A DNA stretch of 64,000 bases from Sphingopyxis sp. (lineage in GTDB: Bacteria; Pseudomonadota; Alphaproteobacteria; Sphingomonadales; Sphingomonadaceae). Both the position numbers and the translations under genes were made by a program. Positions 25,480 to 39,404 of the stretch are shown one piece after another. Below the pieces are notes generated by a model. The model was not told where the DNA came from. It made no database searches and saw only the letters and a list, made by a program, of their open reading frames with translations. Location: positions 62,001-126,000 of the forward strand of contig JAEULK010000050.1 of NCBI GenBank assembly GCA_016793775.1, read 5' to 3'. Position 1 is the stretch's first letter. Every line of letters starts with the position of its first letter.

Positions 25480-26673
25480 TCAGAGTCCGAGCACCATCTT
25501 CGCAATGATGTTGCGCTGAATCTCGTTCGAGCCGCCATAGATCGTCGTCTTGCGGACGTTGAAATAGGTCGGCGCCGCGCGGTGCGCATAATCGGGGCCG
25601 ATCGGATGCTCGTTGTCGCCCTCTCCGAAGCCGCGGAAATAGGGGGCGCCATAATGGCCCACGGCTTCCAGCGTCAGCTCGGTCAGCCGCTGCTGGATTT
25701 CGCTGCCCTTGATCTTGAGCAGGCTCGATTCCGGCCCCGGCCCGCGGCCCGTATTGGGGCCCGCCAGGCTGCGCAACTCGGTGAATTCGAGCGCGGTCAG
25801 GTCGATCTCGAGCTCGGCGATCTTGCGCTTGAAGAAGGCGTTCTGGATCAGCGGCTTGTCGCCGTCGAGTTCGGTGCGCGCGATCGCCTTGACCTTCTCG
25901 ACCCCGCGCTTCGACGCCGCGACGCCGGCGATGCCGGTGCGCTCGTGCGCGAGCAGGAACTTGGCGCAGGTCCAGCCCTTATTCTCGTCATAGACGCGCT
26001 GCGATTGAGGCACGCGCACGTCCTCCAACCACACCTCGTTGACCTCGTGCTCGCCGCCCAGCGTGATGATCGGGCGCACGGTGATGCCGGGCGATTTCAT
26101 GTCGATCAGAAGGAAGCTGATGCCTTCCTGCTGCTTGGCGTCCTTGTCGGTGCGGACCAGGAAAAAGCCCCAGTCGGCGTGCTGCGCCATCGTCGTCCAG
26201 GTCTTCTGCCCATTGACGATATAGTCGTCGCCATCGGGGACCGCCGTCGTGCGCAGGCTGGCAAGATCCGATCCCGCGCCGGGCTCCGAATAGCCCTGGC
26301 ACCACCAATCCTCGCCCGACAGGATGCGCGGCAGGAAATACGCCTTTTGCTCGGGGGTGCCGAAGGTGTAGATCACCGGGCCGACCATCGCGAGGCCGAA
26401 GGGCATCAGGCGGATGCAGTCGGCGCGCGCGGTTTCCTCGGAAAAGATGAAGCGCTGCGTCGGGGTCCAGCCGGTGCCGCCATATTCGACCGGCCAGGCG
26501 GGGGCGACCCAGCCCTTTTTGTAGAGAATCTTGTGCCAGGCGAGGAAATCCTCCTTCGCCAGCTCTTCGCCCTCATCCTGCTTGCCGCGCAGTTCTTCGG
26601 GGTAATTTTCGGCGATGAAGCTGCGCACTTCCTGTTGGAAGGCCAGGTCTTCGGGGCTGAACTCCATGTCCAT
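25480..26673 (-). CDS. Acyl-CoA dehydrogenase
   Basis: A 397-aa acyl-CoA dehydrogenase starting MDMEFSPEDLAFQQEVRSFI. Flavin and substrate segments include CQGYSEPGAGSDLASLRTTAV and GDDYIVNGQKTWTTMAQHADW, and the C-terminus has IYGGSNEIQRNIIAKMVLGL. ATG 26673 has GGGAGAA upstream and is preferred to an ATG at 26718. In many dehydrogenases the base is Glu in a YEG motif near the C-terminus; here the site reads YGG, as in many bacterial FadE proteins whose catalytic Glu lies elsewhere. It is upstream of the second dehydrogenase in the same orientation. The substrate is unknown. Confidence 0.91.
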   Translation of the reverse strand: MDMEFSPEDLAFQQEVRSFIAENYPEELRGKQDEGEELAKEDFLAWHKILYKKGWVAPAWPVEYGGTGWTPTQRFIFSEETARADCIRLMPFGLAMVGPVIYTFGTPEQKAYFLPRILSGEDWWCQGYSEPGAGSDLASLRTTAVPDGDDYIVNGQKTWTTMAQHADWGFFLVRTDKDAKQQEGISFLLIDMKSPGITVRPIITLGGEHEVNEVWLEDVRVPQSQRVYDENKGWTCAKFLLAHERTGIAGVAASKRGVEKVKAIARTELDGDKPLIQNAFFKRKIAELEIDLTALEFTELRSLAGPNTGRGPGPESSLLKIKGSEIQQRLTELTLEAVGHYGAPYFRGFGEGDNEHPIGPDYAHRAAPTYFNVRKTTIYGGSNEIQRNIIAKMVLGL

Positions 26674-26872
26674 GACGATTCTCCCAAGGGCTGTGCCCGG
26701 CTTATAGGATCGGTTCACGCTTACGTAAAGGTAAGTTGCTTCTTGCTACGCGATATGCGCGAAGATCGAGCAGTTGCGCCCATTTGTCCAGCACCCAGCA
26801 CATAGCGCCGCCAAGGCCGGGAGCGATGCTCCCGACCGGGCGAAACCTGGCGTGATCCGAAGGTGGCGCGCG

Positions 26873-27457
26873 TCAGCGGGGCTGGCGATAAGCGATGCAC
26901 CAACGCAGCGCGATAAAGGGGTCGCGATTGCTGAACGGCTGCGACTTGCCTTCGGGCGCGACCTGCACCGTTCCGGCATCAAGCTCGAATCCCGCCGGCG
27001 GATCATATCCCTCGATGAAGCTGTCTACGGCCGACACGCCGATCGCATTGCCGTTCGCCTGCGTCCGGTTCGCCAGGCCGGTGCTGGTTTGAACAGCCCC
27101 GCGATGGCCATGCGGAGGTAGATTGGAAACGGTCAGCACCGTCTGTTCATGGCCGAGCTTCTGGCCCGGCGCCACGGGGGACAGTCCCGGCCCCACCCCA
27201 TTGCCGACCGCCGAGCGGCTGCGCATATCGGGCAAATTGAAGACCCGGTTGTCGCCGCCATAAGTCGTCCCGATGGCATTATAGAGCGCCAGATTGTCGC
27301 GGATGACCAACTCCCTGCCGTCGGCCTCATAATAGTCGCTCGGGCAGTAAGGGAAGGATACGAGCATCATCTGTCCCAGCGTCGGTTTAACTTGCGCCGT
27401 GGCCGGGGCCACCAAAGCCGCCGCTGCGCACAATCCCACCGCAAAAACCGATTTCAT
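26873..27457 (-). CDS. Secreted phage-tail-collar-like protein, subtype A, operon IV
   Basis: A 194-aa exported protein, last gene of the fourth collar operon. The signal peptide ends near PATAQ (residue 22). The collar core TYGGDNRVFNLPDMRSRSAV is recognisable but is the most diverged of the four subtype A copies. Cys38 and Cys187 flank the single HGH motif at His116/His118; the Cys-to-His spacing is 78, one less than in the other eleven paralogues. The C-terminus ends CIAYRQPR and lacks the G-I-F-P-x-R-N tail. A 60-bp gap separates it from the subtype B gene. The family (COG4675, PF07484-type) has no settled cellular function. Start 27457 begins the signal peptide. Confidence 0.82.
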   Translation of the reverse strand: MKSVFAVGLCAAAALVAPATAQVKPTLGQMMLVSFPYCPSDYYEADGRELVIRDNLALYNAIGTTYGGDNRVFNLPDMRSRSAVGNGVGPGLSPVAPGQKLGHEQTVLTVSNLPPHGHRGAVQTSTGLANRTQANGNAIGVSAVDSFIEGYDPPAGFELDAGTVQVAPEGKSQPFSNRDPFIALRWCIAYRQPR

Positions 27458-27517
27458 GCCCCTATCGCGCCCCATAATCCGTCCCCCTCGAAATCATTTT
27501 GCTTGTCGCCATGCGGG

Positions 27518-28144
27518 TCAATTGCGCGGCGGATAGACACCCCATGCCGTTATGCAGAAGCGATTGACGGTGAAAGGCGACAGCGTCGAAACCGGATCGC
27601 TGCCGCCGGTCTTCTGCACCGTCAGCGTGTCGGGATGGAGATTGCCGTCGAAGGCGATCGTCGTCGAATATTCGGGTCCGCTGGTCTTGCCGAACGCGTT
27701 GCGAAACGAGCGCGGGCTGTCGGTATCGCCGTCGACCGACCGGATCAGCGCCTGATGGCTGTGCGTCGCGAGTTGTTCGATGGTCAGAACCTGGCTTTCG
27801 GTGCCGCCCGTCATGCCCAGCGGAATATTGGCCAGCCCCGGACCCCACCCGGCCCCGACGACAAGCCTGCCGCGCACATCGGGTATCGCAAAAGTGGTGA
27901 CGCCATCGCCGCCATAGGTCTTGTCGATCAGCGAAAAAAGCTGGGTATAGGAGGCTTTTTGCAACAGTCGGCCATCGGCCTCCATCCACCGCGCCGGACA
28001 GGGGCCGGCCATTTCGATCATCTGGCCGATATAATAATCCTCGACCGGATCGGGCGGCGGAAGCTGCGCACCAGCGGGCATCGCCGCCATCATCGCGCCG
28101 GTCCCGATCGACGCGAGTAGGGTCCCCTTTTTATACTCCATCAT
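27518..28144 (-). CDS. Secreted phage-tail-collar-like protein, subtype B, operon IV
   Basis: A 208-aa protein. The signal peptide (KKGTLLASIGTGAMMAAMPAGA) is followed by a Pro-rich DPVEDYYIGQMIEM start. The collar core is TYGGDGVTTFAIPDVRGRLVVG. Cys49 and Cys197 flank HSH at 128/130. Subtype B markers are SFRNAFGKT and VTVQKTGGSD-like LTVQKTGGSDPVST, and the tail is GVYPPRN. Two adjacent Met codons (28144, 28141) follow a GGGGAAT site. It is 26 bp after the subtype C gene. The closest relatives in the window are the B copies at 32845, 34971 and 37147. Confidence 0.85.
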   Translation of the reverse strand: MMEYKKGTLLASIGTGAMMAAMPAGAQLPPPDPVEDYYIGQMIEMAGPCPARWMEADGRLLQKASYTQLFSLIDKTYGGDGVTTFAIPDVRGRLVVGAGWGPGLANIPLGMTGGTESQVLTIEQLATHSHQALIRSVDGDTDSPRSFRNAFGKTSGPEYSTTIAFDGNLHPDTLTVQKTGGSDPVSTLSPFTVNRFCITAWGVYPPRN

Positions 28145-28170
28145 GAAATTCCCCGTTATGCGCTTGTGCC

Positions 28171-28770
28171 TCAGGCGGGCGACGCTCCGCTCACCAGAAC
28201 GCAATATTGGATGCCCAGACCCGGCGACCGGCGCTCGAACGGTTTGCCGTCGCCGCTGTTGGCGAAAACCACCGTGTCGCGGTTCATCAAATTCGATTGG
28301 GGTACGCCGCCGGCGACATATTTATTCGCACCGGTCGTCGCCAGGACCGCGCCCACGGCGCGATAGGCATTGCCCGCGCCGCTCGTCGTCCGGATCAGCC
28401 CGGCATGTTCGTGCCGGGGCATCTGGTTTTCGGTGAGCGTCACCATGTCGGTGCCGCCGATCTGTCCGCGCGGTCTTTCGGTCCGGCCATCGGCGACCCC
28501 CGCACCCATCGAGGCCCGCCCACGCATGTCGGGCAAGGCGAAGGTCGTCGAGCCGTCGCCGCCATAGGCCGAGCCGACGGTTGCGAAGAGATCGGCATAG
28601 TCCGCGATCTTCAAAAGCTGGCCTTCGGCGGGCAGGCTTCCCGCCGGGCAGGATTTGGTGGCGAATTTGACAAGTTCGCCGCGATACTGGGCCGATGCCG
28701 GGGGAATGGTCGCGGATAAGGCTACCAATATTCCGGCGCCCCACAACAGGCCCTTCTTCTTGTCAATCAT
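28171..28770 (-). CDS. Secreted phage-tail-collar-like protein, subtype C, operon IV
   Basis: A 199-aa protein and first gene of the fourth operon. The signal peptide is KKKGLLWGAGILVALSATIPPASA. The collar core is AYGGDGSTTFALPDMRGRAS. Cys41 and Cys190 flank HEH at 120/122 (MPRHEH). Subtype C markers TTGANKYVAGGVPQSNLMNRDTVV are present, but the C-terminus is GASPA rather than the usual Pro-Ser-Arg-Asn. The promoter copy at 28802-28830 lies 31 nt upstream of the start at 28770. The fourth operon is separated from the third by the TadE, TadG and PAS genes. Confidence 0.85.
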   Translation of the reverse strand: MIDKKKGLLWGAGILVALSATIPPASAQYRGELVKFATKSCPAGSLPAEGQLLKIADYADLFATVGSAYGGDGSTTFALPDMRGRASMGAGVADGRTERPRGQIGGTDMVTLTENQMPRHEHAGLIRTTSGAGNAYRAVGAVLATTGANKYVAGGVPQSNLMNRDTVVFANSGDGKPFERRSPGLGIQYCVLVSGASPA

Positions 28771-28801
28771 CACCCATATCCCCCCGATCACACGAATGGG
28801 A

Positions 28802-28830
28802 AGCTAGAGTAAAATTTCTTGAAGTCAAAA
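28802..28830 (-). promoter_or_regulatory. Conserved promoter of collar operon IV
   Basis: Read on the minus strand: TTTGAC (28830-28825), a 17-nt spacer, then TAGCTT (28807-28802), 31 nt before the ATG at 28770. The same layout stands before collar operons I, II and III. The -35 box is near consensus and the -10 box is not (TAGCTT against TATAAT), so it may need an activator. Confidence 0.7.
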
Positions 28831-28853
28831 ACTTAACGACGAAATGATGCGGA

Positions 28854-29762
28854 TCACCCTGCCGCATTCGGCAACGCCCTTGGCGTCACCAGCACCACTG
28901 CTCCATCACTGAAATAGGCGTTGCGCCGCTCGGCAATCGATAGCGTTACCGGCTTCGCCGTGCCGTCGCGCGCGACAAGGTCGGATTCGATCCGCGCCGT
29001 CCTGCCGCTGCGCAGGACCTCCTCTAGCGCTTCGCCGAACGGCGCGCGCCGCGCGATTGCCAGGAGCGCCGAAAATTTGACCCGCCGGATCGCCTCGCCG
29101 CCGACGCCTAGCATCGCCATCAGACCATCATTGGCATATTCGACCGCCTCGCGCAGCGAGATGCAGGCGTGGCCGATGCTGCCGTCGGCGTCGAGTGCGC
29201 GCAGCGCCGCGGTCCGCGCGTCGCTCGCCTCGAGCGCCGCGATCGCCTCGCTGACGTCGCGCAGGATGATCGCGCCGCCGACGGGGAGCGGCACGAGGTC
29301 GGCGTGGAGCCACTGCCCAGGCCGTAGCAGCGACGGCAGATCGCCCGAGAAACGCTCGCGATGGTCGATCATGCGCAGGATATGGTGGAAGATCAGGCTG
29401 GTTTCGATCGCCGGAAGCGCCGTTGCCAGCGACTGGCCCACCAACGAGGTCGCGGCGGCGTCGAGCAGATCGGCCGCTGCCGGATTGACCGCCGCGATCC
29501 GCCGGTCGCGATCGATCAGGATCAGGCCGTCGCGGACCGACTCGAGCAGCAATATCTGCGAATCCTGCAATCGCCCCGCGGTCGGCGCGCTGTCGCCCGC
29601 GCCGCCCATCCGCCGGTAGTCGTCGAGCGAGATCAGCACATGGGCGTCCTTGCCATGATGGGTCACCACGACGGGTCGACGCGCCGATTGCAGGCGCCAG
29701 CTGGCGAAGCCGCGGATGAAGTCGGCCGCCGATACGCGGTCATGGCCTTGGGTCGTTTCCAT
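28854..29762 (-). CDS. Phd/YefM-antitoxin-like domain fused to two PAS domains
   Basis: A 302-aa soluble protein. Residues about 10-53 (VSAADFIRGFASWRLQSARRPVVVTHHGKDAHVLISLDDYRRM) match the Phd/YefM antitoxin fold, which binds DNA. A first PAS domain follows (about 65-180, ESVRDGLILIDRDRRIAAVNPAA) and a second (about 195-290, ACISLREAVEYANDGLMAMLG, then LVARDGTAKPVTLSIAERR). No kinase, GGDEF, EAL or toxin domain is present and no toxin gene is adjacent. It is probably a small-molecule or redox-sensing DNA-binding regulator. The start at 29762 has a GGAGGAT ribosome site, deciding it against longer options. It lies 70 bp after tadG and 83 bp before collar operon IV. Confidence 0.75.
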   Translation of the reverse strand: METTQGHDRVSAADFIRGFASWRLQSARRPVVVTHHGKDAHVLISLDDYRRMGGAGDSAPTAGRLQDSQILLLESVRDGLILIDRDRRIAAVNPAAADLLDAAATSLVGQSLATALPAIETSLIFHHILRMIDHRERFSGDLPSLLRPGQWLHADLVPLPVGGAIILRDVSEAIAALEASDARTAALRALDADGSIGHACISLREAVEYANDGLMAMLGVGGEAIRRVKFSALLAIARRAPFGEALEEVLRSGRTARIESDLVARDGTAKPVTLSIAERRNAYFSDGAVVLVTPRALPNAAG

Positions 29763-29832
29763 AGCATCCTCCGAAACATTGCCGTTCCTTCGATGTAACG
29801 GCGCATGTCCGGCGGGTTCGCTCCGTTTCGGA

Positions 29833-31467
29833 TCAGCCGACCAGCTTGGCCTGGCCGCAGCGCAGCGCGTTGACCCGCGCATCGGCCTGTCCGACATGCA
29901 GGCCGAGCACCCCGGTGACCTGCTGCAGGACGCCGTCGAGCAGCGGCGCGGTGGCGCCGACGGTGGTCGCCACCAGCGACTTCAACGAGTTGAGATTCAG
30001 CCCGATTCCAAGGACATTACCGGTCAGGTCCATGCGATCGGCAAGCGACTTGGTTGCCCCCGCGACCAGTCCCGTGCTCGACACCGTCTTGACCGTCCCG
30101 GCGACGATATTGTCGCGCGAAAAGGCGACCGGTTTTTCCGCCAGATCGGACATAACCAGCTCGGCCTGAGCATCGACGCTGGCGAGCGGCAGCTTCAGCA
30201 CCCGGGCCTTTTTGGGAGCGAGCGGACGGTTCATGTCGCGAAAGTCGCTGTCGCTGACGGTACCGATCGCCAGCGACGCAGGCGACGTCGTCACCGCGAG
30301 CTTGACCGCTTCGGGTGCGTTCGTGCCGCAATCGATCGACGCGATGCGCGCCGAGGCTGACCCGAGTTCGGCAAGCACCGGCAATTCGATTGCCGCCACC
30401 GGCGTCGAGATCTTCGCATCGAGGCGCAGGCGAACCTGCGCGGTGCGCACGACGACCTGATTGTCGTCGGTCACCGCGATCAGCGGCGAATTTGCCGGCG
30501 GCTCGCCGACGATCAGCGCGAGCTTGAGCTGGCTCCCGCCCGGCAGCGCGCCGACGAGGTCGAGATCAACCTGGCGATCGGCCGAGCCGAGAATCAGCAT
30601 CGTGCGGAGCAGGCTGAGCAGGTTGACGCGCACCGGGTTCGCGGCATCGACGCGCACGCTTGACGACCGTGGCCCCAGGTCGATCGCCGATGCCGGCACC
30701 AGTTGGGTCGCGTTGGCGCGTGCGGCCATATGCTCGACCAGCGGCGCGACGGCGGGATCTGCCGAGGCGGCGAGTGCGGACAGCATCTGCGGCATCGTCA
30801 CCTGGCTGTCGAGCGTCTGGCCGAAGGTCAGTGCTTCGACCCCGATCTCGCTGCGCAGCGCGTCCGAAAATTTGAGCAGGTCGACGTCGGCACTGGCGAG
30901 CGCGTTGTAATCCATCACCGACAGGTTGAGCTGGCTGCCGGTCAGCGCCGACAATATGGCATTGGGCACTCCGCCGTTGACCGCCGCGACGCGCGACCCG
31001 AGCGAAAAGGCGGCATAACCGCGCCGCGCCCCGGTCGCCGAAGCGCTGATCGTCTTGCTGTCGGCCTCGGTCAAGATGCGGCCGAAGAATAAAGGGTGCT
31101 CTCGCGTGAGCACGATCCGCACCGCGTTGGGCGACGCACCGCCGGCGGTGAAGCGCCGCTCGGCGGCGACGCCAGCGTCGGCGATATAGCTGCCCCGGGT
31201 CAGCGACGCGATGGCGATGCCGCAGTCGCAATTGGCGGCGATGATGCGTTCGGCCGCCGCGCGTTCCTCGCCGGGCTTGGCCGCCGCCGCCATCGCCGCG
31301 GCATCGGCGATCCCCTGCAATTTGCGGCGGTCGAGGTGGAGCGAGCCGACATCGACCGCGAGCGCCGCGGCGCCGATCAGCATCACCATGCCAAAGGCGG
31401 CGGCGATGCTGATGCTGGCGCGATTGTCGCCGGACAGCCGCGCGAAAAGGCGAAACAGGCGCGTCAT
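29833..31467 (-). CDS. TadG-like pilus-assembly protein
   Basis: A 544-aa protein with one N-terminal membrane helix (ISIAAAFGMVMLIGAAALAVDVGSLHLDRRKLQGIADAAAMAAA), the signature of the TadG/TadE-like N-terminal domain (PF13400/DUF2134). The long remainder is extracytoplasmic and lacks a clear MIDAS motif, so a von Willebrand domain is not supported. TadG proteins accompany Flp/Tad pilus machines, but no tadA, tadB, rcpA or flp gene is in this window. It overlaps the TadE-like gene by 4 bp (ATGA), so the two are coupled. Start at 31467 fits the family. Confidence 0.82.
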   Translation of the reverse strand: MTRLFRLFARLSGDNRASISIAAAFGMVMLIGAAALAVDVGSLHLDRRKLQGIADAAAMAAAAKPGEERAAAERIIAANCDCGIAIASLTRGSYIADAGVAAERRFTAGGASPNAVRIVLTREHPLFFGRILTEADSKTISASATGARRGYAAFSLGSRVAAVNGGVPNAILSALTGSQLNLSVMDYNALASADVDLLKFSDALRSEIGVEALTFGQTLDSQVTMPQMLSALAASADPAVAPLVEHMAARANATQLVPASAIDLGPRSSSVRVDAANPVRVNLLSLLRTMLILGSADRQVDLDLVGALPGGSQLKLALIVGEPPANSPLIAVTDDNQVVVRTAQVRLRLDAKISTPVAAIELPVLAELGSASARIASIDCGTNAPEAVKLAVTTSPASLAIGTVSDSDFRDMNRPLAPKKARVLKLPLASVDAQAELVMSDLAEKPVAFSRDNIVAGTVKTVSSTGLVAGATKSLADRMDLTGNVLGIGLNLNSLKSLVATTVGATAPLLDGVLQQVTGVLGLHVGQADARVNALRCGQAKLVG

Positions 31468-31880
31468 TCGGCGGGCAGTTCGAAGGTCGCGCGGGCGCTG
31501 ATGATATCGCCGGGCATGGGGACGAACGTCGATCGCAACAGGCTCGTTTCGGGAACATGATAGGCAAGCTCGACGGTGACCGCATCGGTCGTTTCGGACA
31601 CCAGCACGCTGCGCAGTTCGGTACGATAGCCGCCGACGCCGGTCATGCTGCGGTCGATGGCGCGGATAGCGACGGCGCGGCGGTCGGCGGCGTCGAGTCC
31701 GGTGATCGCAGCGCGCGCGCCATCGTTCGCCGCCTGCTGCACGCTGTGCGCGAGCAGGAAATATTGGCCATAGATCAGGATGCCGAGCAGCAGCATGAGG
31801 AACAGCGGCAGCAAGATCGCGGTTTCGATCATCGCGGTGGCGCGCGTGTTTTCGGCGAAGAGCGTCGGGTGCTTTGTCAT
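31464..31880 (-). CDS. TadE-like pseudopilin
   Basis: A 138-aa protein with the TadE motif: a short basic leader, then ATAMIETAILLPLFLMLLLGILIYGQYFLLAHSVQQAANDGARAAI. The Glu in MIETAILLPL is the typical prepilin Glu after the processing site. TadE proteins are minor pseudopilins of Tad systems, cleaved by TadV-type peptidases. It is first of a pair with tadG. The gap upstream (31881-32179) separates it from collar operon III. Confidence 0.85.
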   Translation of the reverse strand: MTKHPTLFAENTRATAMIETAILLPLFLMLLLGILIYGQYFLLAHSVQQAANDGARAAITGLDAADRRAVAIRAIDRSMTGVGGYRTELRSVLVSETTDAVTVELAYHVPETSLLRSTFVPMPGDIISARATFELPAE

Positions 31881-32179
31881 GCGCCGATCATGCGCGGCGG
31901 ACGTAACCGGACGCGCCAGCGAGGTGCGATAAATGAATTGCCGAATTTACATAATTTCGACGGCGGTCAGGCCGATCGGGCGGACGAGCGGAAATCGAGG
32001 AAATCCAATGGTTTGGGTCGGATTGACTTTGCGCAATCCGATCGGATTACCCGCTGCTGAACGCCCATCGGCGCCGCAATGTCCGATTTTACGGGAAATC
32101 GGGGGGCGGGGCGGGGGATGGAATGAAAAGGGCCGCGCCTTTGCAGGCGCGGCCCGAATTCGATGCGGCTCGCCGCGTG
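31881..32179. other. Intergenic gap between collar operon III and tadE
   Basis: No gene was found in these 299 bases. They hold the tadE promoter region (a relatively AT-rich stretch near 31925-31955), an 8-bp inverted repeat TCGGATTG/CAATCCGA at 32018-32041 with an 8-nt loop, and the terminator of collar operon III at 32126-32155. The collar-type promoter is absent here, which suggests that tadE-tadG are not expressed with the collar genes. Confidence 0.6.
32126..32155 (-). terminator. Rho-independent terminator of collar operon III
   Basis: On the minus strand an 11-bp perfect stem, GGGCCGCGCCT pairing with AGGCGCGGCCC, with a 4-nt loop is followed by TTTT. It begins 24 bp after the stop of the subtype A gene and ends the third collar operon. 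Confidence 0.88.
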
Positions 32180-32803
32180 TCAGTTGCGCGAGGGGAAAAT
32201 TCCCTGAAGCGCGATACACGCCTGAATCGCCAGATAGGGCTGCAGGTTCGAAACGGGCTGGCTGTTGCCCGCCGGCTGGACCTGAACCATCGGGCGGTCC
32301 ATGAAATTGCCCGACGGCGCGGTCGCATTTTCATAGCTGTTGTTGCTCGACACGCCGAAAGCATTGCCATTCGGCGATGTCGAGTTGGCGGCGGCATTGG
32401 CGGTCTGGATCGCACCGCGATGATCATGTTTGAACAGGTTATTGGTGGTCAGCGTTACCGTCTCGCTGCCGACCTGTTCACCGAGCACGACCGGCGTCAG
32501 TCCCGGCCCGCTCCCCTGGTTGATGGCGGAGCGCCCGCGCAGGTCGGGCAGCCCGAAGGTCGTCTGGCCATTGCCGCCATAGGTGGTGCCGAGCAGCGAG
32601 AAGAGCGCCGTGTTGGTCGAGATCGCCAATATCTGACCCGCCGCCGCCGTATAGCCGCGCGGGCAGAAATTGGTCGGCATCAAAATGATCTCACCCAGAT
32701 AGGGCTGCGTCGCCTGCGCCATGACCGGCGCCGACCAGGACAGCGATGCCGTGCCGACGGCAAGTCCGATTGTGAAAGTGCGAATGGCCCCGTGTTTTTT
32801 CAT
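32180..32803 (-). CDS. Secreted phage-tail-collar-like protein, subtype A, operon III
   Basis: A 207-aa protein. A signal peptide (MKKHGAIRTFTIGLAVGTASLSWSAPVMA) is cut near residue 29. The collar core is TYGGNGQTTFGLPDLRGRSAI. Cys47 and Cys196 flank HDH at 126/128, followed by the subtype A block RGAIQTANAAANST and GVSSNNSYENATAPSGNFMD. The tail is GIFPSRN. ATG 32803 has a GGAGGCGGGC ribosome site; a longer frame starting at 32884 overlaps the B gene and was rejected. It is the last gene of its operon, 41 bp after the B gene, and precedes the terminator at 32126-32155. Confidence 0.88.
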   Translation of the reverse strand: MKKHGAIRTFTIGLAVGTASLSWSAPVMAQATQPYLGEIILMPTNFCPRGYTAAAGQILAISTNTALFSLLGTTYGGNGQTTFGLPDLRGRSAINQGSGPGLTPVVLGEQVGSETVTLTTNNLFKHDHRGAIQTANAAANSTSPNGNAFGVSSNNSYENATAPSGNFMDRPMVQVQPAGNSQPVSNLQPYLAIQACIALQGIFPSRN

Positions 32804-32844
32804 GCCCGCCTCCAAAATATCAAAAAGCCGCCGACTGCGCGCGA

Positions 32845-33444
32845 TCAGCTGCGCGACGGGAAGATGCCCTGGGTCGCGATGCAATAGCGCGTGACCAGAA
32901 ACGGCGAAATATTGGGGATCGCGTCGCTGCCCCCGGTTTTCTGTACCGTCACCGTCTGCGCATTCATGCTGCCGCTGTAGCTGGCGACGTTGGTCGTATA
33001 TTGATTGTCCGGCGTCACCGCGAACGAGTTACGGAAGGATTTGGTGTCGTTGGCGTTGACGTTGACCGTCTGGAACACCGCCTGGTGCACATGCTGCGGC
33101 ATCTGGTTGATGGTCAGCGTTTGCGATTCGACGCCGCCGACCTGGCCCAGAGTATAGGGGGAAAGCCCCGGCCCCATTCCCTGGCTTATCGCCAACCGGC
33201 CGCGGAAATCCGGCAGCGCGAAAGTCGTCTGACCGTTACCGCCGTAGGTGGTGCCCAAAAGCGAGAAGAGCGCGGTATTCTGGGCGATGGACAATATCTG
33301 CCCACTGGTGTCCGCGAAGCCGGCCGGGCAGAAATTGCCGCCAAAATGAATGATCTGGCTGAGGTAATAATCCTGCGCCATCGCAGGCGTCGCGATCCCG
33401 GTCGCCAGTGCCGTCGCCAGCGCGAAAGAAATTTTGTGCCGCAT
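32845..33444 (-). CDS. Secreted phage-tail-collar-like protein, subtype B, operon III
   Basis: A 199-aa protein. Signal peptide MRHKISFALATALATGIATPAMA. The mature start is QDYYLSQIIHFGGNFCPAGF, and the core is TYGGNGQTTFALPDFRGRLAIS. Cys39 and Cys188 flank HVH at 118/120. Subtype B markers are SFRNSFAVTPDNQYTT and TVTVQKTGGSD, with the tail GIFPSRS. Start 33444 begins the signal peptide and was preferred to 33531, which would reach into the preceding gene. It is 47 bp after the C gene. Confidence 0.88.
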   Translation of the reverse strand: MRHKISFALATALATGIATPAMAQDYYLSQIIHFGGNFCPAGFADTSGQILSIAQNTALFSLLGTTYGGNGQTTFALPDFRGRLAISQGMGPGLSPYTLGQVGGVESQTLTINQMPQHVHQAVFQTVNVNANDTKSFRNSFAVTPDNQYTTNVASYSGSMNAQTVTVQKTGGSDAIPNISPFLVTRYCIATQGIFPSRS

Positions 33445-33491
33445 CGTCTGTCCCCTCAAAATCCGCTGGTCGTCATATCCACCCGACCGAA

Positions 33492-34109
33492 CTAGTTGCG
33501 CGGCGGAAAAATCCCCGCGCTCACCACGCAATATTGGATGGCCAGCGCCGGCGGGCGATGATCATAGGGCAAGCCCTCTCCCGCGTTGCGGATGATCACC
33601 GTGTCGCGGTTCATCAAATTCGATGCGGGCGTCGTGCCGCTGACATATTTGTTCGCCGGGGTTATGCCAAAAGCGTTGCGGAACGCGCGCGGCGAATCGC
33701 CCGCTGCGGTCGATGCCTGGACGAGCGCGACATGCTCGTGGCGCGGCATCCGGGTTTCGGTCATCGTGTTGGTTTCGGTGCCGCCGACCTGCCCGGTCGT
33801 ATAGGGCGACAGGCCGGGTCCCTGTCCGGGATGGATCGGTGCGCGCCCGCGCAGGTCGGGCAACGCGAAGGTCGTTTGCCCGTTGCCGCCATAGAAGGTT
33901 CCGTAGAGCGAGAAGAGCGCGGTATTCTGCGCGATCGATAGCAAGGCGCCATTGGCGTTGAGGGTATTGCGCGGACAGAAATTATAGGGCGTTTCGATGA
34001 TCATCCCGAGATAATAGTCCTGCGCCGCCGCAGGTGCCGTGAATCCGGCGGTTCCCGCCGCCAGCACCGTCGTCGCCATCAAAAGCCGCGATTTGCGTCC
34101 GAAAGCCAT
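33492..34109 (-). CDS. Secreted phage-tail-collar-like protein, subtype C, operon III
   Basis: A 205-aa protein. Signal peptide MAFGRKSRLLMATTVLAAGTAGFTAPAAA. The core is FYGGNGQTTFALPDLRGRAPI. Cys45 and Cys194 flank HEH at 124/126 (MPRHEH). Subtype C markers FGITPANKYVSGTTPASNLMNRDTVI are present, with the tail GIFPPRN. It opens the third operon, 32 nt below the conserved promoter at 34142-34170. It is very close to the C copy at 35640, including the N-terminal MAF-x-RKSR. Confidence 0.89.
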   Translation of the reverse strand: MAFGRKSRLLMATTVLAAGTAGFTAPAAAQDYYLGMIIETPYNFCPRNTLNANGALLSIAQNTALFSLYGTFYGGNGQTTFALPDLRGRAPIHPGQGPGLSPYTTGQVGGTETNTMTETRMPRHEHVALVQASTAAGDSPRAFRNAFGITPANKYVSGTTPASNLMNRDTVIIRNAGEGLPYDHRPPALAIQYCVVSAGIFPPRN

Positions 34110-34141
34110 GGCTTCGCCCCCCTGTCCCTATGAAGGTGAGA

Positions 34142-34170
34142 AAGCTAACCGCTTTTTAACCAATGTCAAA
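34142..34170 (-). promoter_or_regulatory. Conserved promoter of collar operon III
   Basis: On the minus strand: TTTGAC (34170-34165), a 17-nt spacer, and TAGCTT (34147-34142), 32 nt before the ATG at 34109. It is identical in both boxes and spacing to the operon I and IV copies, while the spacer sequence differs. Confidence 0.72.
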
Positions 34171-34220
34171 TGGCGGGGCCAGCTTCGCGGTCTTTGCATC
34201 GCCAAACGTCGAAAAACCTG

Positions 34221-34252
34221 CAAAAACAAAAGCCGCGACCTTGCGGCGCGGC
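34221..34252 (-). terminator. Rho-independent terminator of collar operon II
   Basis: On the minus strand GCCGCG pairs with CGCGGC around a 9-nt partly paired loop (CCGCAAGGT) and runs into TTTTGTTTTTG. It lies between the subtype A gene stop at 34306 and the operon III promoter. Confidence 0.82.
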
Positions 34253-34305
34253 GTTTGTCGGGTTGTCCCGGCGAAGGGCCTGGCCGAGTCGTCGGCCCGG
34301 CGATG

Positions 34306-34929
34306 TCAGTTGCGCGGCGGGAAAATCCCCTGCGTCGCTATACACCACAACACCGTGTTATAGGGGGGGCGCACCGAAAAGGGGACCGAACTGCCCGCGG
34401 TCTGCACCTGAACCATCGTCTGGTTCATCAGATTGCCCGTCGGGTCGCCGCCGCCGCTGAGGTAGCTGTTGTTCGACGAGATGCCGAAAGCCGCGCCGCT
34501 GGCGGTGGTGCTATTGGCGACGGCGTTGGCGGTCTGGATCGCCGAGCGATGCGTGTGGCCCGGCATTTCGGCGATCGCCAAGCTATGCGTTTCCGCGCCG
34601 CCCTGCTGACCGAGAACATAGGGCGACAGTCCAGGGCCCGAACCCTCGTTCACCGCCATGCGGCCACGCATGTCGGGAAGCTGGAAAGTCGTGGTGCCGT
34701 TGCCGCCATAGGTGACGCCGATCAGCGAAAACAGCGCGGGGTTCGTTTGAATGGCAAGAAGCTGCCCCTGCGCCGCCGCATAGCCGCGCGGGCAAAAAGT
34801 GAAGCCAACCTGAATCATCTGGCCGACATAAGGATCGACCTGTGCCGATGCCGACGGCGCCAGCGCGAAGGCGCTGCTGCCCGCAAGCGCCGCCATCGTG
34901 ATTTTCCTGAATGTCCCCGTGCGTGTCAT
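34306..34929 (-). CDS. Secreted phage-tail-collar-like protein, subtype A, operon II
   Basis: A 207-aa protein. Signal peptide MTRTGTFRKITMAALAGSSAFALAPSASA. The core is TYGGNGTTTFQLPDMRGRMAV. Cys46 and Cys196 flank HTH at 125/127, followed by RSAIQTANAVANSTTASG and GISSNNSYLSGGGDPTGNLMN. The tail is GIFPPRN. It is the last gene of operon II, 41 bp after the B gene. Its Asn-rich loop after the HxH motif is shared only with the other A copies. Confidence 0.88.
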   Translation of the reverse strand: MTRTGTFRKITMAALAGSSAFALAPSASAQVDPYVGQMIQVGFTFCPRGYAAAQGQLLAIQTNPALFSLIGVTYGGNGTTTFQLPDMRGRMAVNEGSGPGLSPYVLGQQGGAETHSLAIAEMPGHTHRSAIQTANAVANSTTASGAAFGISSNNSYLSGGGDPTGNLMNQTMVQVQTAGSSVPFSVRPPYNTVLWCIATQGIFPPRN

Positions 34930-34970
34930 TTACGCCTCCCAAATATCAAAAAGCCGCCAATTGCGCGCAA

Positions 34971-35585
34971 TCAGTTGCGCGACGGGAAAACCCCCGCGGT
35001 CGCGATGCAATAGCGCGTGACCAGGAAGGGCGACATCATCGGCGCCACGGTCGACGTCACATCGCCCGCCCCCTGCACCGTGATCGTTTCGCTGTTCATG
35101 GTGACGTCGAGATTGGTCGAGTTCGTATATTGATTGTCGGCCGTGACCGCGAAGGCGTTGCGGAACGACTTGTTGTCGTTCGCATTCGACGTCGAAGTTT
35201 CGAAAACGCCCGTGTGGCTGTGAATGGGAAGATTGGGGAGCGTCAGCGTTACCTGTTCACTGCCCCCAATCTGCCCTTGCGTATAATTCTGGAGGCCCGG
35301 CCCCTGCCCCAGGCTGATCCCCATCCGGCCGCGCAGATCGGGCAGATTAAAGGTGGTGACGCCATTGCCGCCATAGGTGGTGCCGAGCAGCGCGAACAAC
35401 GCCTGGTTCTGGGCAATCGGGAGGACCTGGCCGTTGGTTTCCTGAAAGAACTTCGGGCAATAAGTGCCGCCGACTTCGATCAACTGCCCGATATAATAAT
35501 CCTGCGCCACCGCCGGCGTTGAAGCCGCGACGGCGAGCGCGCTCGCCGCGCCGAGCGATAAAATCCTTGTATGCCGCATCGTCAT
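34971..35585 (-). CDS. Secreted phage-tail-collar-like protein, subtype B, operon II
   Basis: A 204-aa protein. Signal peptide MRHTRILSLGAASALAVAASTPAVA; a second Met at 35579 is an equally good start. The core is TYGGNGVTTFNLPDLRGRMGIS. Cys43 and Cys193 flank HSH at 122/124. Subtype B markers SFRNAFAVTADNQYTN and ETITVQGAGDVTS are present, with the tail GVFPSRN. It is 54 bp after the C gene and 41 bp before the A gene. Confidence 0.88.
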   Translation of the reverse strand: MTMRHTRILSLGAASALAVAASTPAVAQDYYIGQLIEVGGTYCPKFFQETNGQVLPIAQNQALFALLGTTYGGNGVTTFNLPDLRGRMGISLGQGPGLQNYTQGQIGGSEQVTLTLPNLPIHSHTGVFETSTSNANDNKSFRNAFAVTADNQYTNSTNLDVTMNSETITVQGAGDVTSTVAPMMSPFLVTRYCIATAGVFPSRN

Positions 35586-35639
35586 ACTCCCCTGAAATCC
35601 CTCAAAGCGCCGCTTACGCCGCGACGCCGCTCAAACGCG

Positions 35640-36251
35640 TCAGTTCCGCGACGGAAAGATGCCGGTCGTCAGCACGCAATATTGGATCGCCAGATAGGGC
35701 GGCCGATGATCATAGGACTGGTTGCCGCCCGTCTGTCCCAGGACGATCGTCCCGCGCTCCATCAGCTGCGACGCCGGCGTCGTGCCGGTGATATATTTGT
35801 TCGCCGGCGTGGTGCCGAAGGCGTTGCCGACCGGTGTCGTCGAAGTGCCGGCCGCGCTGCTGGCTTTGAGCAAGGCGATATGCTCGTGCTTCGGCATCGT
35901 CGCGAGCGTCATCGTATTGGCCTCGGTCCCGCCCGTCTGGCCCAGAGTGCGCGGCGTCAGGCCGAGGCCGTTTCCAGTATGCATCGTATAGCGTCCGCGC
36001 ACGTCGGGGACACCGAAAGTGGTGACCCCGTCGCCACCATAGGTGGTGCCATACAACGCATAGAGCGCCGACTCATTGGCAATCGACAGCAGCCGGCCAT
36101 CGGCCGGAACCGTGCCGACCGGGCAGAAAGTATTGGCGAGCTTCATGACCTCGCCCAAATAGAAATCCTGCGCCGCCGCCGGTGCCCCGAACCCTGCGGT
36201 CGCCGCGATCGCCGTCGTCAGATACCAACGCGATTTACGAACGAAAGCCAT
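35640..36251 (-). CDS. Secreted phage-tail-collar-like protein, subtype C, operon II
   Basis: A 203-aa protein. Signal peptide MAFVRKSRWYLTTAIAATAGFGAPAAA. The core is TYGGDGVTTFGVPDVRGRYTM. Cys43 and Cys192 flank HEH at 122/124 (MPKHEH). Subtype C markers FGTTPANKYITGTTPASQLMERGTIV are present, with the tail GIFPSRN. Start 36251 begins the signal peptide; a longer frame to 36347 would run through the promoter. It opens operon II, 32 nt below the promoter at 36284-36312. Confidence 0.89.
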   Translation of the reverse strand: MAFVRKSRWYLTTAIAATAGFGAPAAAQDFYLGEVMKLANTFCPVGTVPADGRLLSIANESALYALYGTTYGGDGVTTFGVPDVRGRYTMHTGNGLGLTPRTLGQTGGTEANTMTLATMPKHEHIALLKASSAAGTSTTPVGNAFGTTPANKYITGTTPASQLMERGTIVLGQTGGNQSYDHRPPYLAIQYCVLTTGIFPSRN

Positions 36252-36283
36252 CGCCTCATCCCCCTGCCCAAATAGTGATGCGC

Positions 36284-36312
36284 ACGCTATTCTGTTTTCG
36301 GCGAATGTCAAA
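36284..36312 (-). promoter_or_regulatory. Conserved promoter of collar operon II
   Basis: On the minus strand: TTTGAC (36312-36307), a 17-nt spacer, and TAGCGT (36289-36284), 32 nt before the ATG at 36251. This copy has one change in the -10 box (TAGCGT for TAGCTT). Confidence 0.68.
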
Positions 36313-36390
36313 CCGCGATGCATATATATTTGAAAAAATTGGACCATTGCGGCCGAAGGGCCGCATCACCGACACGAAAGAACAATGACC

Positions 36391-36408
36391 CCACCCCTGC
36401 GGGCGTGG
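36391..36408 (-). terminator. Possible weak terminator of collar operon I
   Basis: On the minus strand CCAC-G-CCC pairs with GGGGTGG around a 3-nt loop, with one bulge, about 70 bp after the stop of the subtype A gene. The U-rich tail is poor (GGTCATTGTT), so it is weaker than the terminators of operons II and III and may allow read-through. Confidence 0.35.
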
Positions 36409-36479
36409 CCATTATTGAGTATCCCCTGTAATCTGTCGGTCACAATATTATAGCGACCATCGGTATCGCCGCTCCGCAA

Positions 36480-37103
36480 TCAATTGCGCGGTGGATAAAT
36501 ACCCTGCAATGCGACGCACCATTTCAGCGCGATGTAGGGCGGGCGGTTGTTCACCGGCTGCGATCCGCCGGTCGGATTCACCTGGATCGTCGAACTCGCC
36601 ATCAGATTGCCCGAGGGCGTGGTTCCCGACTGGAAACTGTTGTTCGACGACACGCCGATCGCATTGCCGTTCGCGGAGGTGCTGTTCGCGTTCGCATTGG
36701 CCGTCTGCAACGCAGCGCGGTGATCGTGCGGCGGCAGGTTGGCGGGGATCAGCGTCGTCGTTTCGCTGCCAGCCTGCTCGCCGATCGAATAAGGCGAAAG
36801 CCCCGGGCCGTTCCCCGGGGTGTTGGCGGCGCGTCCCGACAGGTTCGGCAAGGCGAAGGTCGTTCGCCCATCGCCGCCATAGTTTGTGCCAAAGAGCGAA
36901 AAAAGTGCGGTATTTTGCGAGATCGGAAGGATCTGGCCCGCTGCCTGTGCCCAGCCCAGCGGGCAGAAATTGAAGCCGACCTGCATCAGCTCGCCCAAAT
37001 AGCTTTGCGTCGCGTCCGCCGAAGCCGGCGTGGCATAGGCCAGCGCCGAGCCGCCGGCCGCCAGAGCCATGGTGAAGTTCCGGATTGCTGATTTGCCTGT
37101 CAT
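36480..37103 (-). CDS. Secreted phage-tail-collar-like protein, subtype A, operon I
   Basis: A 207-aa protein. Signal peptide MTGKSAIRNFTMALAAGGSALAYATPASA. The core is NYGGDGRTTFALPNLSGRAAN, with Asn-Leu-Ser where the others have Asp-x-Arg. Cys47 and Cys196 flank HDH at 126/128, followed by RAALQTANANANSTSANG and GVSSNNSFQSGTTPSGNLM. The tail is GIYPPRN. It is 43 bp after the B gene and the last gene of operon I. The A copies share an N-terminal R-x-F-T motif before the hydrophobic core. Confidence 0.88.
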   Translation of the reverse strand: MTGKSAIRNFTMALAAGGSALAYATPASADATQSYLGELMQVGFNFCPLGWAQAAGQILPISQNTALFSLFGTNYGGDGRTTFALPNLSGRAANTPGNGPGLSPYSIGEQAGSETTTLIPANLPPHDHRAALQTANANANSTSANGNAIGVSSNNSFQSGTTPSGNLMASSTIQVNPTGGSQPVNNRPPYIALKWCVALQGIYPPRN

Positions 37104-37146
37104 ACCCCGCCTCCAAAATCTCGATATTCGATCGTGTCGTCGCCGG

Positions 37147-37767
37147 TCAGTTACGCGAAGGGTAGAGACCCAGCAGCGCGATGCATGTGCGGGTCACCAG
37201 AAAGGGCGACATATTGTTGAACGCCACGCCGTCGGTGCCCGTTTTCTGCACGGTCACGGTCTCGGCTTGCAGAGATCCGTCGAAGGCCGGGCCGGTGACC
37301 GGTATTTTATATTGATTGTCCGGCGTCACCGCGAAGGAGTTGCGAAAGGACTTATTGTCGTTGCCGGCGGTAGCGACCGACTGAAGCGACCCCGGATGGA
37401 CGTGAGCCGGCAGCGTGTTGAGGGTCAATGTCACGGTTTGCGTGCCGCCGATCTGTCCCTGATTATAGAAGCTGCCGCCCGGCAATTGCCCGTCGCCGAT
37501 CACCATGCGTCCGCGAACATCGGGGAGTGCGAAGGTTGTGGTGCCGTTGCCGCCATAGGTCGTGCCGAGCAGCGAGAAAAGCGCCTGATTCTGGGCGATC
37601 GACAGAATCTGCCCGCTGGCGTCGGCAAATCCGCGCGGGCAATAGGTCCCGGCAACCTCGATCAACGACCCCATAAAAAATTGCTGCGCCGCCGCCGGCG
37701 AGGCGGAAAACGCCATCAGCCCCGAAGCGGCGGCCACCGCCAATGATTGTCCATGCCGCATTGCCAT
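37147..37767 (-). CDS. Secreted phage-tail-collar-like protein, subtype B, operon I
   Basis: A 206-aa protein. Signal peptide MAMRHGQSLAVAAASGLMAFSASPAAA. The core is TYGGNGTTTFALPDVRGRMVIG. Cys43 and Cys195 flank HVH at 122/124. Subtype B markers SFRNSFAVTPDNQYK and ETVTVQKTGTDG are present, with the tail GLYPSRN. It lies 43 bp after the C gene and 43 bp before the A gene. The MRH start is shared with the B copies of operons II and III. Confidence 0.88.
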   Translation of the reverse strand: MAMRHGQSLAVAAASGLMAFSASPAAAQQFFMGSLIEVAGTYCPRGFADASGQILSIAQNQALFSLLGTTYGGNGTTTFALPDVRGRMVIGDGQLPGGSFYNQGQIGGTQTVTLTLNTLPAHVHPGSLQSVATAGNDNKSFRNSFAVTPDNQYKIPVTGPAFDGSLQAETVTVQKTGTDGVAFNNMSPFLVTRTCIALLGLYPSRN

Positions 37768-37810
37768 ACTCCCCTAAAGCCCCTCAACCGCCCGGCGGAC
37801 CGGTCGCGCC

Positions 37811-38419
37811 CTAATTCGTCGACGGGTAGATTCCCTGCGTGACGACGCAATATTGCAAGGTCAGCGTCGGCGGCAGGTGGCTCCACGGCTGGCTGCTGCC
37901 CGTGCTGCCGACGATCACGAGATCGCGGTTCATCAGCTGCGATGCCGGAACCGCGGCCGACGCATATTTGTTCGCCGGGGTTGTCGCCAGGACATTGCCG
38001 ACGGGGCTTGTCGAATCGGCCGCTTGCGACGTGGTGCGGAACAACGCCGTATGTTCGTGCCGCGGCATGTTGCCGAGCGTCATCGTATTGGTTTCGGTGC
38101 CGCCAACCTCGCCCAGAACCCGATTGGTCAATCCCGGCCCCTGCCCCTCATGCAGCGACACGCGGCCGCGATAATCGGGAACGGCGAAGGTGGTTTGCCC
38201 ATCGCCGCCATAGGTCGTACCGATCAAGTTAAACAGCGTGCTTTCCTGCGCGATGCTCAGCAGGGCGCCATTGGCGGCGACGGTTCCGATGGGGCAGAAG
38301 GTATAGCCCGTCCGGAGAATCTGCCCGATATAATTGTCCTGAGCCGCCGCTGGATTCGCCACCCCCGAAAAAGCGAGTACCACCGCCGTCGCGGATATCC
38401 CAACCGATCTGCGCAACAC
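37811..38419 (-). CDS. Secreted phage-tail-collar-like protein, subtype C, operon I
   Basis: A 202-aa protein and first gene of the whole array. Signal peptide MLRRSVGISATAVVLAFSGVANPAAA. The core is TYGGDGQTTFAVPDYRGRVSL. Cys42 and Cys191 flank HEH at 121/123 (MPRHEH). Subtype C markers LATTPANKYASAAVPASQLMNRDLVI are present, with the tail GIYPSTN. The promoter at 38453-38481 lies 33 nt upstream. The convergent or tandem neighbour upstream is a GST gene on the same strand, ending at 38523. Confidence 0.88.
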   Translation of the reverse strand: MLRRSVGISATAVVLAFSGVANPAAAQDNYIGQILRTGYTFCPIGTVAANGALLSIAQESTLFNLIGTTYGGDGQTTFAVPDYRGRVSLHEGQGPGLTNRVLGEVGGTETNTMTLGNMPRHEHTALFRTTSQAADSTSPVGNVLATTPANKYASAAVPASQLMNRDLVIVGSTGSSQPWSHLPPTLTLQYCVVTQGIYPSTN

Positions 38420-38452
38420 AGCCGTCCCCCCACCGATGCCCTTGATGGAAGA

Positions 38453-38481
38453 AAGCTACCGCAAATTTTGGCAAAGTCAAA
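38453..38481 (-). promoter_or_regulatory. Conserved promoter of collar operon I
   Basis: On the minus strand: TTTGAC (38481-38476), a 17-nt spacer, and TAGCTT (38458-38453), 33 nt before the ATG at 38419. It lies in the 103-bp gap after the GST gene. Confidence 0.72.
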
Positions 38482-38522
38482 GGCGGTCGTGGCAAATATC
38501 CGGCTCTTTGCCGCGCGCGATC

Positions 38523-39404
38523 TCAATTGCCTTCAGCGGGTTCCAATTTGTCCTGAGTCCGCAAATCGAAGTCCGACGCATCGTGCCGTTCGCGCAGCTG
38601 GCTGGCCGGGTCGCCCATCACCCGGTTGACCATGCGGCCGCGCTTCACCGCGGGCCGCGCGGCGATCTGGTCGGTCCAGCGCTGGACATTCCTATACTCC
38701 TGCACCTGCAGGAATTCGCCGGCGTCGTAGACGAGGCCTTTGACCAGCGCGCCGTACCAAGGCCAGACCGCCATGTCGGCGATGCTGTAGTCGGCGCCGC
38801 CCAGATACTCGCTCTCGGCCAGCCGGCGGTCGAGCACATCGAGCTGGCGCTTCACCTCCATCGCATAGCGATTGATCGGATATTCCTGCTTGGTCGGCGC
38901 ATAGGCGTAAAAATGTCCGAAGCCGCCGCCGAGGAAAGGCGCGCTGCCCATCTGCCACATCAACCACGACAGCACCTCGGCGCGCGCGGCGGTTTCGGTC
39001 GGCAGGAAGGCGCCGAATTTCTCGGCGAGATGGATCAGGATCGCGCCCGATTCGAAGATGCGGATCGGCTCGGGTCCGCTGCGATCGACCATCACCGGGA
39101 TCTTGCTGTTCGGATTGGCGGCGACATAGCCGCTGGAGAATTGGTCGCCTTCGCCGATGTTGATCAGCCAGGCATCATATTCCGCGCCGCCATGGCCCGC
39201 CGCGAGCAGTTCCTCGAGCAGCACGGTGACCTTCACCCCATTGGGCGTGCCGAGCGAATAGAGCTGGAGCGGATGTTGGCCGACCGGCAGTTCCTTGTCA
39301 TGGGTCGGCCCGGCGATCGGCCGGTTGATGTTCGCGAAACGCCCCCCGCTTTCCTTGTCCCAGGTCCAGACCTTCGGCGGAACATAGTCGGTGGCGTCGC
39401 TCAT
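38523..39404 (-). CDS. Glutathione S-transferase, YghU-like
   Basis: A 293-aa protein of the YghU/Nu-class GST type, longer than ordinary GSTs because of an N-terminal extension (DYVPPKVWTWDKESGGRFANINRPIAG). The thioredoxin-like domain (HPLQLYSLGTPNGVKVTVLLEEL, then NPNSKIPVMVDRSG and FESGAILIHLAEKFG) and the helical C-terminal domain (SEYLGGADYSIADMAVWPWYGAL) are complete. Relatives bind two glutathiones and reduce disulfides or organic peroxides in the cytoplasm. The Thr-Pro-Asn-Gly at the active-site turn is the family signature. It is 75 bp downstream of the CaiB-type gene. Confidence 0.92.
   Translation of the reverse strand: MSDATDYVPPKVWTWDKESGGRFANINRPIAGPTHDKELPVGQHPLQLYSLGTPNGVKVTVLLEELLAAGHGGAEYDAWLINIGEGDQFSSGYVAANPNSKIPVMVDRSGPEPIRIFESGAILIHLAEKFGAFLPTETAARAEVLSWLMWQMGSAPFLGGGFGHFYAYAPTKQEYPINRYAMEVKRQLDVLDRRLAESEYLGGADYSIADMAVWPWYGALVKGLVYDAGEFLQVQEYRNVQRWTDQIAARPAVKRGRMVNRVMGDPASQLRERHDASDFDLRTQDKLEPAEGN

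Follow-up and report, generated by a model that had tools for sequence, protein, structure and literature searches.

Tandem triplets of secreted collar-domain genes in Sphingopyxis as candidates for exported heterotrimers resembling a tail-fibre tip

The collar locus and its inheritance by triplets

The 64,000-nucleotide stretch of Sphingopyxis sp. DNA analysed here (contig JAEULK010000050.1, positions 62,001 to 126,000; in the following the window) carries on its minus strand, between positions 26873 and 38419, twelve collar-domain genes (PF07484) of 194–208 codons, arranged as four triplets with the subunit order C-B-A. In the transcribed order three triplets follow one another, then come genes for a TadE-like, a TadG-like and a PAS-domain protein, and then the fourth triplet. 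All twelve products contain a collar domain and an HxH motif and start with what reads as a signal peptide, here always judged from the N-terminus by eye; the lengths of 194–208 residues depend on the start codons chosen in the analysis. A first-pass annotation of the window had already given these coordinates, lengths, gene order and signal peptides, and they hold on re-reading of the genes. The subtype motifs it quoted are found, with variants, in triplets 1 to 3, but only loosely in triplet 4 (SFRNAFGKTSGPEY, AVQTSTG, GANKY).

The Pfam collar scores lie between 55.6 and 80.8 bits against a cut-off of 24 in the six proteins scanned (6/6), and all twelve exceed the cut-off in the genome search, which at E 0.001 yielded exactly these 12 matches in the assembly and no other collar gene. 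Genes are separated by 26–60 nt within triplets, by 228 nt between triplets 1 and 2 and by 196 nt between triplets 2 and 3. Two terminator-like hairpins are listed with the genes below, single calls of this kind being weakened by the number of such sites in the region, 17 as compared to 10.9 (sd 4.1) in shuffled sequences. No PEP-CTERM or RTX sorting features were detected in the six of the twelve collar proteins scanned, and PADLOC (five proteins) and Rfam (26500–38800) returned nothing at the limits used.

37811..38419, minus strand: T1C, collar subunit C of triplet 1 (202 aa; signal peptide by eye; HEH; Pfam Collar 7.1e-20; clade C)
37147..37767, minus strand: T1B, subunit B of triplet 1 (206 aa; Pfam Collar 6.9e-23; clade B)
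36480..37103, minus strand: T1A, subunit A of triplet 1 (207 aa; Pfam Collar 3.8e-22; clade A)
35640..36251, minus strand: T2C, subunit C of triplet 2 (203 aa; by PF07484 genome search and tree)
34971..35585, minus strand: T2B, subunit B of triplet 2 (204 aa; by PF07484 genome search and tree)
34306..34929, minus strand: T2A, subunit A of triplet 2 (207 aa; by PF07484 genome search and tree)
34232..34247, minus strand: terminator-like hairpin 3' of triplet 2 (T2A) (consensus match)
33492..34109, minus strand: T3C, subunit C of triplet 3 (205 aa; by PF07484 genome search and tree)
32845..33444, minus strand: T3B, subunit B of triplet 3 (199 aa; by PF07484 genome search and tree)
32180..32803, minus strand: T3A, subunit A of triplet 3 (207 aa; by PF07484 genome search and tree)
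32130..32155, minus strand: terminator-like hairpin 3' of triplet 3 (T3A) (11 pairs, T-rich tail; consensus match)
31464..31880, minus strand: TadE-like protein, resident neighbour outside the triplets (PF07811 4.9e-12; occurs without collars elsewhere)
29833..31467, minus strand: TadG-like protein, resident neighbour (PF13400, PF09977; occurs without collars elsewhere)
28854..29762, minus strand: PAS-domain protein with Phd/YefM-like N-terminal part, resident neighbour (PF08448 3.5e-15; PF02604 3.2e-6, below the Pfam cut-off)
28171..28770, minus strand: T4C, subunit C of the diverged triplet 4 (199 aa; Pfam Collar 5.6e-20; clade C)
27518..28144, minus strand: T4B, subunit B of triplet 4 (208 aa; Pfam Collar 3.8e-18; clade B)
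26873..27457, minus strand: T4A, subunit A of triplet 4 (194 aa; Pfam Collar 5.2e-15; clade A)

How did four such triplets come about? In a tree of the twelve proteins the subtypes A, B and C form clades of four (support 100/98, 100/98 and 100/99), as the first-pass annotation had expected, and grouping by operon is rejected for each of the four operons (p-AU 7.7e-4, 7.3e-6, 6.7e-11 and 5.6e-127). Triplet 4 is far more diverged than triplets 1 to 3 in all three subunits. Any collar match at all was found in 13 of 80 genomes of the genus. Eight of these, the source included, carry C-B-A genes at the same site in numbers of 12, 12, 12, 6, 6, 6, 6 and 3, all multiples of three, and the other five have one or two collar matches, single proteins of 138–220 aa without triplet layout (one weak match in genome G272 was left out of the comparison). 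A tree of 62 of the 63 genus genes (one L100 gene, split by a frame shift, was left out) resolves by triplet position into clade A with 21, clade B with 21 and clade C with 20 proteins, each with support of 100/98–100, and the same triplet families reappear within the A, B and C parts. Moreover, the distance matrices of the partners correlate with r of 0.87–0.92 (20 triplets) and still with 0.69–0.77 (14 triplets) without triplet 4 and one near-duplicate genome; when partners are swapped within genomes, r falls to about 0.1, and only 11–18 of 4999 shuffles reach values as high. As gene counts are multiples of three, three clades appear among the 62 proteins and partners co-diverge, the sequences strongly support the duplication of whole triplets as units that the first-pass annotation had proposed.

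The flanks of the locus are metabolic and transport genes, encoding a glutathione S-transferase (GST), a CoA transferase, two acyl-CoA dehydrogenases and a TonB receptor, and the first four of these flank the locus also in the seven other collar-bearing genomes (7/7). Among 16 hand-picked collar-free genomes of the genus, 12 have the TadE, TadG and Phd/PAS genes alone between GST and dehydrogenase, one has part of the PAS gene only and three have none of them. Collar genes number 3, 6 or 9 on the GST side and 0 or 3 on the dehydrogenase side. Since the Tad genes are present in 12 of the 16 collar-free sites, the triplets are the variable part, and most simply the TadE-TadG-Phd/PAS genes are older residents on either side of which triplets were gained or lost. 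The three genes described in the first-pass annotation as an insert between triplets are thus probably no insert. The PAS protein (28854–29762), whose N-terminus resembles Phd/YefM antitoxins (E 3.2e-6, under the Pfam cut-off), is kept together with TadE and TadG.

The same site bears on two explanations that look to the surroundings of the triplets. The collar proteins could be an envelope or cell-surface part tied to TadE and TadG, in the manner of a pilus-like accessory. Tad genes do adjoin triplets in six of the eight collar-bearing genomes, and in three of the eight triplet 4 lies beyond the Tad genes; however, the collar-bearing loci L099 and L101 are without Tad genes, the collar-free sites just described keep Tad genes without collars and a terminator-like hairpin (consensus match only) lies between T3A and TadE, so that we regard such a tie as improbable. 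Less probable still, and disfavoured here, is that the triplets encode fibre tips of a phage-like particle, either left behind or carried as cargo by a prophage, tailocin or contractile injection system. Although every functionally categorised PHROG match of the six proteins scanned is a tail protein (a few matches are of unknown function), the flanks are metabolic and transport genes, with GST, transferase and dehydrogenases kept in all the other collar-bearing genomes, the genome contains no further collar gene, and the triplet proteins have signal peptides by eye, which virion proteins are not known to carry. None of the nine neighbours scanned is a phage gene, be it for tail or baseplate, the rest of the 64 kb not having been scanned.

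Chain features and collar sets in other genomes

The HxH motif is found at one shared position in all 62 genus chains, where it aligns with the HxH of 8kec, and somewhere in all 201 cross-phyla single-collar chains. Its centre differs between the subtypes. The middle residue is Glu in 19 of 20 C subunits, is never acidic in the 21 B subunits, six of which have Glu directly after the motif, and is Asp in 11 of 21 A subunits, 20 of which have Arg directly after it. Three Glu meeting in a homotrimer of C would presumably be unfavourable. Two cysteines are invariant in the genus (62/62) and could link the collar to the returning strand by a disulphide; none of the 201 cross-phyla relatives has the first of them, which sits in an FCP-like motif. 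A strand motif near QPYLxxxxCIAxxGIFPSRN lies after the collar in all 62 genus chains and all 201 cross-phyla chains, two of which have an extra one. Computed without triplet 4 and one near-duplicate genome, identity in the region from HxH to strand is 27% between subtypes as compared to 44–58% within, making it the most divergent stretch apart from the signal peptides, and in the collar, the least divergent stretch, 60% as compared to 68–72%. Such a distribution is expected if the collar is a shared core and the tip is specialised.

Are sets of three found elsewhere? Of 160 genomes sampled from the phylum, each with a completeness of 95% or more, 46 gave collar matches at E 1e-8. Without the source genome, the 91 matches in 45 genomes fall into 51 clusters of matches less than 2 kb apart, comprising 30 singles, 2 twos, 19 threes, which include fused chains (e.g. 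G103), and none larger. Eighty named loci, taken from many phyla and including one archaeal record, are biased to threes, since their ranking followed how much of a three-collar query they cover; 67 of them consist of three adjacent single-collar genes, 11 of one three-collar gene, one of six and one of four. The archaeal three-gene set (L168) stands in a record titled Methanoregulaceae archaeon. By a crude rule, a signal-peptide-like start is present in 4 of the 201 proteins of the three-gene loci, which we take to be the proteins named 'microcystin-dependent protein' or MdpB, a name that appears on viral entries as well. Two subtype clades, X and Y, picked after inspection of the tree to maximise one member per locus, are present exactly once in 57 and 56 of the 67 loci. 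One each of three subtypes (X, Y and Z) is found in 47 of the 67 across five gene orders, indicating that one of each was kept despite changes of order; the other 20 do not fit. Among 80 loci on viral contigs 56 are single collars, 8 twos, 10 threes, several of them near-copies, and 6 larger. Two contigs of a viral collection (L207, L209) have six or seven collar open reading frames in a row and may be bacterial sequence. With T2A as query 277 phage records matched, none covering 80% of it.

Three collars also occur within one chain. Four proteins of the family sample begin with a signal peptide (by eye), contain three collars and as many HxH motifs, and end in a PEPxxWA-CTERM tail, identified as NF035944 with 45–54 bits against a cut-off of 35. 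Among 20 fusions, 17 have the strand motif (limits of 5 and 12 bits, set by the analyst) ahead of the first collar and none has it behind the last; 14 repeat strand and collar three times. The simplest reading would be that the first strand of a fusion closes the last unit of a three-unit ring; a plain permutation of each fusion unit is a possible alternative. PEPxxWA-CTERM three-collar proteins are found at L046, L050, L052, L078 and, by pattern only, L108, and perhaps represent an unnamed exosortase substrate type. Other three-collar proteins end in RTX repeats (L058, L073 and L077 by Pfam match; L111, L115 and L139 by pattern; L055 by length and layout only) or in a Hint domain (L151), and lack HxH except for one within the Hint part of L151.

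The relation between the secreted A/B/C and the widespread X/Y/Z subtypes was examined in a tree of 18 genus A/B/C rows (triplet 4 left out), 14 other secreted rows from the family and 14 X/Y/Z loci drawn from the 47 that fit the one-of-each split. All 32 secreted rows lie on one side of a branch with support 100/99. The pairings C+X, C+Y and B+Y, the only ones with a result, are rejected (p-AU 0.0024, 0.0023 and 0.0035). Both results suggest that A, B and C diverged from one another independently of X/Y/Z, although shared secretion features, composition and cysteines could have pulled the secreted rows together.

The proposed heterotrimer

What could the triplets encode? Each C-B-A operon probably specifies one exported A:B:C heterotrimer that resembles a T4-type tail-fibre tip and binds a surface ligand. 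By analogy, the products very probably work like a trimeric tip, and it is likely that they do so as a heterotrimer. Briefly, the three chains would be exported by Sec, their collar domains would pack round a three-fold axis, the one HxH of each chain would meet the others on this axis to form a six-histidine metal site, and the C-terminal strand of each chain would return to the collar. The region after HxH, in which the subtypes diverge most, would form an asymmetric tip for a surface ligand, probably a glycan or lipopolysaccharide. Several triplets per genome could then constitute a repertoire of tips of differing specificity, gained or lost whole at one site. The first-pass annotation had suggested a heteromeric surface fibre of fixed ratio. 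Its heteromeric part is well supported, though indirectly, by the three-collar fusions, the one HxH per chain and a virophage set discussed below, but about 180 mature residues make a tip and not a long fibre.

Alternatively, A, B and C could be subfunctionalised binding proteins that form three separately acting homotrimers and are merely co-expressed, which we consider rather unlikely. T4 gp12 (PMC3004832) and gp37 (as stated in PMC12724248) are indeed homotrimers, and one- or two-gene secreted relatives exist in the same family. Outside the genus such relatives often are pairs or singles, next to one three, two fives and one six, arguing against three kinds being always needed; in four of 8 secreted pairs the members are mutual nearest neighbours, and the remaining four, made up of two couples of related loci, sort at least partly by position. 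AlphaFold models of T3A (A1, 12 rows; mean pLDDT 39.8) and of a three-collar fusion (A3, 11 rows; mean pLDDT 48.8) are too low in confidence to speak on packing, and the ring-closure idea is therefore drawn from the order of elements along the chain only. However, separate homotrimers would not by themselves explain why the clusters of the phylum sample include few twos and none of four or more, why fusions have exactly three collars, why the HxH centres are subtype-specific, and why the virophage set co-purifies 1:1:1 (PMC12724248). The five or six secreted collar genes in a row at L042, L060 and L076, loci of other family members, look like local duplicates and not like ordered triplets.

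In a wider reading that we favour by a little, a homotrimeric phage-type tip gave rise in bacteria, repeatedly and at least partly independently, to obligate three-part tips for their own exported use. Three routes would have been taken: an old one, spread over many phyla, by diverged genes without signal peptides, a separate secreted A/B/C split, and fusions with a strand in front; the genus in addition would duplicate whole triplets as a repertoire of surface-binding heads. Genes of this kind often bear the annotation of phage tail proteins. Should the sets prove to be exported heterotrimers, many chromosomal 'phage tail' annotations would in fact denote one class of binding proteins that serve the cell, and the change from homotrimer to obligate heterotrimer could be tested directly on natural fusions and arrays of triplets.

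Comparison with known systems

With the tips of T4 gp12 and gp37 the triplet proteins share the collar, the HxH motif and a C-terminal strand back to the collar, and HxH as well as the order of collar and strand are present in all 62 genus chains. T4 gp12 and gp37 differ in being homotrimers on the virion with long shafts, and are not known to carry a signal peptide. Both tips are among the best structural matches of the low-confidence fusion model; a Foldseek search against the PDB gave 1ocy as best match at E 0.088 and none at 0.001. In a published account, gp12 holds a Zn ion on the three-fold axis, bound by His445 and His447 of each chain, in a fold termed 'knitted' (PMC3004832). HxH motifs of phage fibres are discussed as iron sites in another paper (PMC11705849). 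The X/Y/Z sets likewise have collar, HxH and C-terminal strand and stand three in a row in 67 of the 80 ranked loci, but signal-peptide-like starts are rare, the FCP-type cysteine is missing, and in the completed tests their subtypes are not A, B and C.

A collar protein of R. pomeroyi was reported among secreted proteins (PMC4949626). RhiB, encoded in the rhizobial operon rhiABC(D), which is linked to plant interaction, is reported to have a collar domain, whereas no Pfam domain was found in RhiA and RhiC (PMC13133039).

Among the closest counterparts is a set of the virophage DSLV2. The first-pass annotation knew of no described function for such a quadruple set; yet, according to a 2025 report, three consecutive, co-expressed PF07484 proteins of DSLV2 purify as a 1:1:1 complex of about 55 kDa, form fibres of about 16 nm and bind Synechococcus cells, and trees of such proteins group by gene position (PMC12724248). 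In the literature covered on bacterial three-gene collar sets, in which subscription journals are mostly missing, this paper alone deals with such sets. Three consecutive PF07484 genes and trees by position are equally found for the C-B-A triplets. In contrast to the viral DSLV2 genes, which lie beside a minor capsid gene, the triplets have metabolic flanks and no adjoining capsid genes, are chromosomal, number as many as four per genome, and encode a cysteine pair as well as signal peptides (by eye). What is new in the triplets is thus, in the best supported reading, an exported, chromosomal and multi-copy version of an already known tripartite collar tip.

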